From positions 186,001-250,000 of the forward strand of contig NZ_JBGCCU010000002.1 of assembly GCF_041261445.1 (NCBI RefSeq): a stretch of 64,000 nucleotides of DNA. The letters run 5' to 3'. Shown here piece by piece: positions 54,859-57,434 of the stretch. Every line of letters begins with the position of its first letter. Positions within the stretch are counted from its first letter, which is position 1. Origin of the DNA: Catenulispora sp. EB89. GTDB lineage: Bacteria > Actinomycetota > Actinomycetes > Streptomycetales > Catenulisporaceae. Made by a program: the position numbers and the translations under genes. The notes beneath the pieces are model-generated. The model saw nothing but the letters and a program-made list of their open reading frames with translations. It did no database searches and had not been told where the DNA came from.

Positions 54859-56388
54859 TCAGTGCCCCTCAGCCTCCTGGGTGTGCTTCGACATCGTGAA
54901 CGCGACGGCCCAGGCGACCACCAGGATCGCCGCGCTGATCGCGAACACCAGGGTCGCGGCGGCCGGGACGCTGGTCATCATCGCGCCCGCCTTGTCGAAG
55001 AACACCGTGCCCAGCGCGGCGATCCCGAAGGCGCCGGCGAGCTGCTGCATCGCGTTGAGCAGGCCCGAGGCCGAGCCGACCTCGGCGTCGTCCAGGTCGC
55101 CCAGCACGGTGCCGAAGATCGGGCCGAAGATCAGGCCCATGCCCATCCCGGAGACCAGCAGCGGGACGATCAGGGTCCAGCTGGTGGTGGTCGCGCCGTA
55201 GGTGTGGACCAGCAGCGCGGAGATCACCGTGCCCAGGGACATGACCAGCATGCCGGCCTGGAGCGTGCGGCGCGGGCCGACCTTGGGCATCAGGGCCTGC
55301 GAGGCGCCCATGGAGACGATCGTGCCGATCGACCAGGGCAGCATCGTCAGCCCGGCGTGCAGCGCGCTGTAGTGCAGGCCGACCTGCAGGAACAGCGTGT
55401 AGACGAAGAACACGCCGCTCATCGCCGCCGCGAAGGAGAACAGCACGGCGATGCCGCTGACGAACGAGCGCTTGCGGAACACGGTCGGCACCACGAACGG
55501 GTCGCGGCCGAGGGCGTTGCGGCGGCGCTGGTGCAGCGCCAGCACACCGAAGGTGGGGACGGACGCGGCCATCATGGCGAACATCCACGCCGGCCAGCCC
55601 GCCTCGCGGCCCTGGACCAGCGGGTAGACCAGCAGCATGACGCCGGCGGTGGCCAGCAGCATGCCGACGATGTCGAGCTTGGGCTTGGCGCCGTCGGCGG
55701 CGTGCTCGTCCCGGGGCAGCACCTTGCTGCCGAAGGCCAGCGCGGCGATCCCGACCGGCACGTTGACCAGGAAGATGGCGCGCCAGCTGAGCCCGAACAG
55801 GTCGGCGCCGACCAGCCAGCCGCCCAGGATCGGGCCGAGGGTCGCGGCCAGGCCCATCATCGGGCCGAAGATGCCGAAGACGGAGTTCATCTTCTCCGCC
55901 GGCACCATGGCCCGCAGCATGCCCAGGCCCTGCGGGATCATCACCGCGGCGAAGGCGCCCTGCAGGATGCGCGCGCCGATCAGCTCGCCCGAGCTCTGCG
56001 CCACCGAGCACAGGACCGAGCCGACCAGGAAGCCGCTGATGCCGACCTGGAACATCCGCTTGCGGCCGAAGACGTCGCCGAGCCGGCCGCCGGTGGTCAG
56101 CATCACCGCGAAGGCCAGCGTGTAGCCGGCGACGATCCACTGCAGGGCCGAGGTGGAGGCGCCGAGGTCGGTCCGCAGGACCGGGCTGGCGATGTTCATG
56201 ATCGTGGTGTCGAGCAGGTCCATGATGTCGGCGCCGATGATCGCGAACAGCGCGAGGATCACGGCCTTGCCGAGCTTGGACTTGGCCGGACTTTGGGCGT
56301 CTTGTGAAGCCTGCCCGTCCGGTGAGCCGGGAGGCGCGCCGTCGGAGTGGTCGACGGTCTGGTTCGAGGTGTCGATCGTGCTGGTCAT
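54859..56388 (-). CDS. DHA2-family (EmrB/QacA) multidrug exporter
   Basis: A 509-residue proton antiporter with 14 predicted helices. The motif D-like start is MDLLDTTIMNIASPVLRTDL, motif A is GRLGDVFGRKRMFQVG, and motif C lies in GLAATLGPILGGWLVG. The N-terminal 50 residues are cytoplasmic and Asp/Ser/Pro-rich. The ATG at 56388 has GGAGGGGG 8 bases upstream. It is divergent from a TetR repressor, with an operator array between them, so it is a drug- or metabolite-inducible efflux system. Confidence 0.93.
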   Translation of the reverse strand: MTSTIDTSNQTVDHSDGAPPGSPDGQASQDAQSPAKSKLGKAVILALFAIIGADIMDLLDTTIMNIASPVLRTDLGASTSALQWIVAGYTLAFAVMLTTGGRLGDVFGRKRMFQVGISGFLVGSVLCSVAQSSGELIGARILQGAFAAVMIPQGLGMLRAMVPAEKMNSVFGIFGPMMGLAATLGPILGGWLVGADLFGLSWRAIFLVNVPVGIAALAFGSKVLPRDEHAADGAKPKLDIVGMLLATAGVMLLVYPLVQGREAGWPAWMFAMMAASVPTFGVLALHQRRRNALGRDPFVVPTVFRKRSFVSGIAVLFSFAAAMSGVFFVYTLFLQVGLHYSALHAGLTMLPWSIGTIVSMGASQALMPKVGPRRTLQAGMLVMSLGTVISALLVHTYGATTTSWTLIVPLLVSGMGMGLIFGPIFGTVLGDLDDAEVGSASGLLNAMQQLAGAFGIAALGTVFFDKAGAMMTSVPAAATLVFAISAAILVVAWAVAFTMSKHTQEAEGH

Positions 56389-56449: not shown

Positions 56450-56482
56450 TGAACGTTGTTCGAGACGAGCGAACGCCGTTCG
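56450..56482. promoter_or_regulatory. Operator pair in the exporter leader
   Basis: Two 13-base palindromic sites of type CGAACG-C-CGTTCG, at 56450-56462 (TGAACGTTGTTCG) and 56470-56482 (perfect). They lie 16-48 bases downstream of the exporter's -10, so a bound repressor would block early transcription. Confidence 0.8.
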
Positions 56483-56497
56483 GTGGGTTGCGTCATC

Positions 56498-56525
56498 ACG
56501 ATATATCTCGTGTGCCGGATGTCAA
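56498..56525 (-). promoter_or_regulatory. Exporter promoter
   Basis: On the minus strand TTGACA (56520-56525), a 16-base spacer and TATCGT (56498-56503). The near-consensus -35 is rare in this GC-rich sequence. Confidence 0.55.
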
Positions 56526-56564
56526 GCTATATCGCGAACCTCGGATCTGCGTCCGATGTCCTCA

Positions 56565-56651
56565 CGAACGCCGTTCGTGGTTCTACGAACACCGTTCTAC
56601 ACGCGAACATCGTTCGAGTCAAACGCCGTTCGAGCTTCCGAACGCCGTTCG
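56565..56651. promoter_or_regulatory. Five-site operator array before the TetR gene
   Basis: Five copies of the same 13-base palindrome at 56565, 56586, 56604, 56620 and 56639, starting 16-21 bases apart, about two helical turns. The first and last are perfect CGAACGCCGTTCG; the others differ by one to three bases. TACAGT at 56659-56664, just after the array, is a likely -10 for the TetR gene, so the array covers its promoter. Confidence 0.8.
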
Positions 56652-56693
56652 TCAGGCGTACAGTGTTCGGAAGAAGGAAGGGAGCCAGACCCG

Positions 56694-57434
56694 ATGGCGA
56701 ATCCAGCAGCACCGAACGAGACTCCGGAAGCGCCGGTCCCCCCGTGGGAGCGCACGCGCAAGGTCAAGGCGACCGCGCGCACGCCGCTGAGCCAGGAGGC
56801 GATCGTCGAGGCGGCGCTGCGCATCCTGGAGTCCGACGGCTACGACGCGCTGTCCATGCGCCGCGTCGCCGCCGATCTGGGCACCGGCGCCGCGTCCCTG
56901 TACGCGCACGTCGCCAACAAGGACGAGCTGCTGAAGCTGGCCATCGACCGGGTGTTCGGCGAGGCCGAGATCCCCGAGCCGGACCCCGAGCACTGGATCG
57001 AGCAGCTGCGCGACGCGATGCGCCAGACCCGGCGGATCCTGCAGGCCCACCCCGGCCTGGCCCGCTCCATGCTCGGCCGGGTGCCGATGGGACCGAGCGG
57101 GATCCGGCTGGTCGAGGGCTTCATGGGCCTGCTGCGGGCCGGCGACCTGCCGGACAAGGTGGCCGCCTGGGCCGGGGACGTCGTCTCGCTGTACGTGGTC
57201 GCCAGCGTCTTCGAGGACGACGTCCGGTTCTCCGTCCACGGCGAGACCTCGCAGGAGGACGTCGAGAAGTGGGCCGGCGAGATGAAGTCCTACGTCAAGT
57301 CCCTGCCGGTCGAGACGTTCCCGAACATGGTGGCGCTGGCCGACCCGATGTTCGAGACCGGGGGCCCGGACGGACGGTTCGAGTTCGGCCTCGACCTGAT
57401 GCTGCGCGGTCTGGCCTCGCACGCTCGGCACTGA
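56694..57434 (+). CDS. TetR-family repressor of the divergent exporter
   Basis: A 246-residue TetR/TetR_C-type protein. Residues 1-30 are a Pro/Lys-rich extension. The helix-turn-helix is MRRVAADLGTGAASLYAHVA (about 56-75), with KDELLKLAIDRVFGE completing the domain. The C-terminal part (HWIEQLRDAMRQTRRIL to FEFGLDLMLRGL) is the tetracycline-repressor-like ligand domain. The ATG at 56694 follows AAGGGAG. The seven inverted repeats between it and the exporter are its likely binding sites, giving autoregulation. Confidence 0.92.
   Translation: MANPAAPNETPEAPVPPWERTRKVKATARTPLSQEAIVEAALRILESDGYDALSMRRVAADLGTGAASLYAHVANKDELLKLAIDRVFGEAEIPEPDPEHWIEQLRDAMRQTRRILQAHPGLARSMLGRVPMGPSGIRLVEGFMGLLRAGDLPDKVAAWAGDVVSLYVVASVFEDDVRFSVHGETSQEDVEKWAGEMKSYVKSLPVETFPNMVALADPMFETGGPDGRFEFGLDLMLRGLASHARH

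Follow-up and report, generated by a model that had tools for sequence, protein, structure and literature searches.

Multi-operator repression by TetR-family proteins has been described for ActR, which acts with ActA in actinorhodin export in Streptomyces coelicolor, and for SCO7222 of the same organism. In the available extracts of one report (PMC3511530), ActR gives three complexes with an intergenic DNA that contains three palindromes, the footprints of SCO7222 cover three copies of TGGAACGNCGTTCCA, and the divergent genes are repressed 23-fold by ActR and 72-fold by SCO7222. SimR, a TetR-family repressor encoded opposite the MFS exporter SimX (simocyclinone export), uses two separate operators and is released by ligand, according to extracts of PMC5812520. 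EthR of Mycobacterium tuberculosis occupies a single divergent intergenic region as several dimers, described in the extracts of PMC5403819 as a cooperative octamer on one operator, and controls ethA, a monooxygenase gene. For RifQ, a typical inverted repeat was found in the protected sequences (extract of PMC5787919).

The locus analyzed here is located in a 64-kb stretch of DNA, which is the whole sequence examined and is hereafter called the window, from the genome of a Catenulispora strain, a soil actinobacterium (11.9 Mb in 70 contigs). An array of palindromes lies between two divergent genes (Table 1). One codes for an exporter that scored 253 bits against TIGR00711, over the cut-off of 230.2, and a GGAGG was seen by eye before its ATG. 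The other codes for a TetR-family regulator whose closest solved-structure match was ActR (190.7 bits), followed by SimR (94.5 bits); its best named match was a protein of Catenulispora rubra with 96% identity, in a comparison from which records very near the window's own were possibly absent. The locus thus has the hallmarks of the ActR/SCO7222 type, i.e., a TetR_N + TetR_C_1 regulator near ActR, a divergent MFS gene and at least three GAAC...GTTC palindromes. Judged by its sequence, the array is an extended version of this multi-operator switch, with eight sites in two clusters. ActR, in contrast, has three weaker palindromes in 110 bp in the extracts available, and its system sits in an antibiotic cluster, whereas none was seen by eye beside our array. 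The TGGAACGNCGTTCCA core of SCO7222 is the same as that of the array; however, the SCO7222 system, as excerpted in PMC3511530, has three sites with different outer operator bases, and SCO7223 is a monooxygenase. SimR/SimX and EthR resemble our locus in the divergent MFS exporter and in the predicted loading of several dimers, respectively, but not in the number of operators. With its eight sites, the array also does not correspond to a classical TetR/TetA pair, which has two operators between the genes.

Seven matches to the 13-mer CGAACGNCGTTCG with no more than two mismatches were identified (sites 1–7), including three exact copies, two with one mismatch and two with two. The seven-site array of the original prediction is therefore real, although seven sites are reached only when mismatches are allowed, and it is in fact longer: an eighth, degenerate copy with three mismatches (site 8) extends the row beyond the end first reported. 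The start-to-start spacings from site 1 to site 8 are 20, 95, 21, 18, 16, 19 and 18 bp. The window contained 17 matches with at most two mismatches, 7 in the array and 10 elsewhere, and no enrichment across the 64 kb was seen when as many as three mismatches were allowed (75 matches vs a shuffled mean of 82). The signal of the array is the clustering of sites, not the abundance of the motif in the window.

Table 1. Positions in the window of the array, its flanking genes and putative promoter elements
Feature	Positions	Strand	Sequence	Remarks
DHA2 (EmrB-type) MFS exporter gene	54859..56388	-		509 aa, ATG at 56388
Operator site 1 (putative)	56450..56462		TGAACGTTGTTCG	Same place in 10/10 Catenulispora loci
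Operator site 2 (putative)	56470..56482		CGAACGCCGTTCG	10/10 Catenulispora loci
Conserved blocks	56498..56538		ACGATATATCTCG + GATGTCAAGCTATATCGCGAA	Between sites 2 and 3
Inferred exporter promoter P2	56498..56525	-	-35 TTGACA, 16 bp, -10 TATCGT	-35 at 56520-56525, -10 at 56498-56503
Operator site 3 (putative)	56565..56577		CGAACGCCGTTCG	
Operator site 4 (putative)	56586..56598		CGAACACCGTTCT	Right arm common to P1 -10
Inferred exporter promoter P1	56594..56622	-	-35 TTGACT, 17 bp, -10 TAGAAC	-35 at 56617-56622, -10 at 56594-56599
Operator site 5 (putative)	56604..56616		CGAACATCGTTCG	Occupies P1 spacer
Operator site 6 (putative)	56620..56632		CAAACGCCGTTCG	Overlap with P1 -35
Operator site 7 (putative)	56639..56651		CGAACGCCGTTCG	
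Operator site 8 (putative)	56657..56669		CGTACAGTGTTCG	Identical in 10/10 Catenulispora loci; holds inferred tetR -10
Inferred tetR -10	56659..56664	+	TACAGT	Inside site 8
TetR-family regulator gene	56694..57434	+		246 aa; TetR_N + TetR_C_1

In the whole genome, all three occurrences of the exact 13-mer are in the array. The consensus CGAACRNYGTTCG was found five times in 11.9 Mb, four times in the array and once beside a paralogous TetR gene (the pattern read backwards occurred once), and pairs of GAACNNNGTTC separated by 3–14 bp were found four times, three in the array and one at the same kind of paralogous locus (backwards, none). A stricter doublet pattern had no match in the genome, because no two adjacent sites are both perfect. 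Frequent occurrence elsewhere in the chromosome had been named as the result that would count against a dedicated operator, and neither the consensus nor the pairs are common there. A wider regulon was considered and finds no support in the five consensus places or in the pairs. With one mismatch allowed, however, 57 places were matched (5 in the array) vs 21 for the reversed pattern, so lone weak targets elsewhere in the genome are possible.

We examined nine other Catenulispora genomes, each of which had a TetR orthologue (78–96% identity) and a divergent exporter gene. All eight sites were present in 10/10 Catenulispora loci, and sites 3–8 kept an identical register in all of them (offsets 0, 21, 39, 55, 74 and 92). 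Sites 1 and 2 are 19 or 20 bp apart, and their distance to the other sites is not fixed. Within sites 3–8, 59/60 columns of the arms were invariant, compared with 8/18 in the central triplets and 5/27 in the linkers. This combination of constant arms with variable centres and linkers is the pattern predicted for protein recognition of DNA palindromes. Because the array is present in all ten genomes, we rejected the idea that its sites were amplified recently in this strain.

Where sites 4, 6 and 8 depart from the consensus in a conserved way, they coincide with promoter-like hexamers. Site 4 supplies, through its right arm, the TAGAAC of a candidate exporter promoter (P1), while sites 5 and 6 fall in its spacer and over its -35 element. 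The corresponding frame, GTTCTA-N17/18-NGTCAA, was present in 9/10 Catenulispora and 49/88 other loci and in 0/9800 random sequences, and in all 58 loci its spacer held a site; the exact frame was missing in one Catenulispora locus (L007) and in 39/88 other loci. Since GTTC is also an operator arm, the association was tested inside the arrays. Among the other loci, a left-hand site ending in GTTCTA was followed by GTCAA at the right-hand site in 46/57 neighbour pairs, vs 15/142 pairs without this end, and the computed p value, about 1e-21, overstates the significance because the loci are related. A mirrored frame toward tetR was found in 0/3 and 1/256 cases. Counted from GTTCTA, the site starts in the other loci were mostly at -26 to -28, -8, +10/+11, +28/+29 and +46/+47, and those in Catenulispora at -29, -8, +10, +26, +45 and +63; a site was present at -8 in 48/49 and at +10/+11 in 47/49 of the frame-bearing other loci. 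The weak point of P1 is that its -10 element lacks the final T with which this hexamer usually ends. The same frame was also found at an ActR-orthologue locus (L046, 400.6 bits to ActR), in the form CGACCACCGTTCTA-TAGT-GGAACGGTGGTCG-TGTCAA, and the sites of this locus resemble the second and third ActR operators in the extracts of PMC3511530.

The interval from site 2 to site 3 holds blocks that are conserved genus-wide, and these contain a second promoter-like element (P2), which matches 10/12 consensus bases with 0.0 expected. Both block cores were found in 10/10 Catenulispora and 0/88 other regions, and the first core alone in seven others. These blocks are AT-rich and partly form an inverted repeat (CGATATATCTCG and CAAGCTATATCGCG) that is fully kept in the genus. 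They perhaps correspond to promoter P2 or to the site of a second regulator, and the exporter may be driven by P1, P2 or both.

On the tetR side, the candidate -10 hexamer is contained in site 8, and no good tetR -35 was seen. Sites of the NGTACNNNGTTC type were detected in all ten Catenulispora and in 31/88 other loci, occupied the tetR-proximal position in 38 of these 41, and carried TACAGT as the hexamer in 20/41. In 12/41 loci (L047, L057, L060, L062, L069, L074, L083, L085, L072, L075, L080 and L081) the end of the hexamer is 6–7 nt from the first in-frame ATG or GTG, as expected for the -10 element of a leaderless gene, and the tetR genes of these 12 loci are probably leaderless. The distance in Catenulispora is 26–29 nt in 8/10 loci and 56 and 95 nt in the other two. 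It had been proposed that five sites lie over the tetR promoter and two inside the exporter transcript; this division holds only in part, as the larger cluster also covers the conserved exporter promoter frame.

The occurrence of such sites was further analyzed beyond the ten Catenulispora loci. The survey used the best 80 relatives by similarity of at least 572, from which three (L039-L041) were dropped as duplicates of L006, L009 and L014, together with 11 of the 20 non-orthologous loci L015-L034, giving 88 non-Catenulispora loci. One to six sites were detected in 4, 21, 20, 28, 13 and 2 of these loci, respectively, i.e., at least two in 84/88 and at least three in 63/88, compared with 0.083 sites per 450 bp in random sequences with matched dinucleotide composition; because these 88 loci, with the consensus of the window, also served to seed the site matrix, the counts are not independent of it. 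Several operators had been considered unusual for a TetR system. On the contrary, two or more are the rule in this group, and the extracts of PMC3511530 give three for ActR and three for SCO7222. The remaining nine loci of the L015-L034 set (L018 and L025-L032, 29–36% identity) were outside the main survey and were scanned afterwards with the same matrix. Eight of them had no site and L030 had three weak ones, suggesting that the arrays belong to the closer relatives; with these nine added, 85/97 non-Catenulispora loci had at least two sites. A divergent exporter homolog was detected at 55 of the loci of the best 80 relatives, and the others had a different neighbour or none detected.

A search in the opposite direction started from the motif and asked which genes lie beside it. 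Triple arrays of GAACNNNGTTC were found in 30/394 genomes of the class, with zero in the control columns, and the 30 loci (one per genome) had a TetR homolog in 29 and an MFS homolog in 29 cases. Among these 30 loci, more than four sites were present only at the Catenulispora array described here. Many of the TetR matches, which number 47 and are not independent of relatedness, were weak (27–30% identity, or the DNA-binding HTH part alone), indicating that these regulators belong to the TetR family and are not all ActR-like. One proteobacterial record, Pollutimonas bauzanensis (L118), contained an ActR-like TetR protein (37% identity) with two sites of the motif, perhaps as a result of horizontal transfer.

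The distance between the spacer site and the tetR -10 type site varied in steps. A distance of 18 bp was measured in 19 loci, 36 bp in 4, 37 in 1, 41 in 1 and 53 in 10, and the main values match the presence of zero, one or two extra operators. The 53-bp group consisted of nine Catenulispora loci and one Streptosporangiaceae strain (L047), and one of the 36-bp loci (L050) had a further tetR -10 type site at 18. Locus L007, which shares the site register of the other Catenulispora loci, was left out of this count because its -35 element is off the pattern. A tree of 98 TetR proteins gave full support to the Catenulispora clade and to a group of three 36-bp loci from another genus of the same family, but did not resolve how these two groups are related. 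L047 fell among the Streptosporangiaceae, with L050 and a five-member clade of 18-bp loci close to it, and bootstrap values on the path between it and Catenulispora were 83–96%, mostly under the 95/80 mark of the tool. The stepped distance across genera (18, 36 and 53 bp) suggests that arrays lengthen by whole operators. Considered together with the tree, repeated growth is the likely reading, and the larger Catenulispora cluster was probably built up one operator at a time, each new unit being added between the exporter -35 and the tetR -10. The local amplification of sites suggested by the original prediction is consistent with such growth; however, it would predate the divergence of the ten genomes, and no shared linker sequence was seen between the sites.

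It is quite probable, in our assessment, that the adjacent ActR-like TetR repressor uses the array as its operator grid, covering the divergent promoters of the exporter and tetR genes. Ownership of the sites by the adjacent TetR, as originally proposed, is very probable given their presence at 84/88 related TetR loci and their exclusivity in the genome. Binding of the sites by this regulator, both promoters, repression and induction are inferred as follows. The units recognized by TetR dimers would be CGAAC-RNY-GTTCG, and in the absence of inducer the dimers would cover both promoters, with most units registered on promoter elements: sites 4–6 on P1, site 8 on the tetR -10 and site 7 just upstream of it. 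Sites 1–3 lie downstream of the predicted P1 start, and sites 1 and 2 also downstream of the Catenulispora-specific P2, and would act as roadblocks. Release of the repressor would be triggered by a ligand, perhaps a substrate of the exporter, and exporter and repressor would then rise together.

The role of sites 1–3 could be a different one. Only the promoter-embedded sites 4–6 and 7–8 might repress, and sites 1–3 would mainly titrate or buffer the repressor and shape the dose response. The wide sharing of the -8 and +10/+11 positions among frame loci (48/49 and 47/49) fits this possibility, as does the Catenulispora-specific placement of sites 1 and 2 in no fixed register with the others, but both are kept in 10/10 genomes beside a second promoter-like element, and we regard it as unlikely. 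Cooperative coating of one face of the DNA, with regular two-turn spacing and local amplification, was part of the original prediction and is not supported by the geometry. At 10.5 bp per turn, the helix angles of sites 3–8 are 0, 0, 257, 86, 17 and 274 degrees, with a phase resultant of 0.49 vs a random mean of 0.36; sites 3, 4 and 7 are nearly in phase and growth by units is likely, but sites 5, 6 and 8 are out of phase and the array is older than the genus sample. In relatives, sites are most often spaced at 18 bp (99/201), or 1.7 turns, so that neighbouring dimers would wind round the helix. One-face coating is accordingly very improbable, although phases without a single common face argue neither for nor against cooperative loading as such.

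TetR and MFS genes travel together, so their association with the palindromes cannot by itself name the binding protein. Nevertheless, the motif follows TetR loci that have no detected MFS neighbour (e.g., L089, L094 and L098), and the relatives ActR and SCO7222 bind such sites (extracts of PMC3511530), leaving scarcely any credence for a regulator other than the adjacent TetR. Hairpins in the exporter leader RNA would be a practically negligible explanation: CGAAC-NNN-GTTCG could fold into a small hairpin and sites 1–3 would fall in the leader, but the arms are invariant rather than covarying (59/60 columns) and sites also lie over and upstream of the promoter hexamers. An RNA attenuator was judged unlikely from the same invariance, and no terminator-like site was found.

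Beyond the operator grid of the adjacent TetR, we tentatively raise a broader possibility, which the data make conceivable rather than probable: that in ActR-like repressors across Actinomycetota operators double as promoter hexamers and the grid lengthens in steps of about 18 bp, independently in several lineages, with Catenulispora and the Streptosporangiaceae strain each reaching 53 bp, providing an evolvable repression dial. If so, grid length would tune the strength or steepness of repression, and Catenulispora, with eight sites, would have the longest grid in our survey. In the literature searched, which largely excludes subscription journals, we found no account of promoter register or stepped growth, and a search by operator letters, judged by title and the start of the abstract, returned none on TetR operators. 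The related switches form a natural series with two to eight operators, one repressor group and bases common to promoter and operator. Such a series would allow testing how operator number sets the leakiness, steepness and response time of exporter control, and GAACNNNGTTC units spaced out between a TetR gene and an MFS gene offer a simple signature for proposing targets of unstudied TetR proteins.

Additional repeats were observed at other loci. The paralogous TetR locus of the host genome mentioned above (L129) has a second array at C9:14002-14028, with three sites at 16-bp spacing between the TetR gene (39% identity) and a gene read by eye as a luciferase-like oxidoreductase. In congeners, GAACNNNGTTC pairs away from the surveyed loci were detected at G007:C203:4036-4060 and G013:C45:42653-42679. 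Paralogous Catenulispora TetR loci use a centre variant, CGAACTTAGTTCG or CGAACTAAGTTCG, with three sites each in L022, L024 and L033 and one each in L023 and L034, possibly reflecting a specificity change. A different repeat, CGATATACCTCG, was present in at least nine copies in both orientations within about 280 bp of the host genome (L128 2298-2577, G000:C49:10297-10576), upstream of a gene read by eye as a polyprenyl synthetase, and similar repeats also occurred at C4, C7, C32 and C39.
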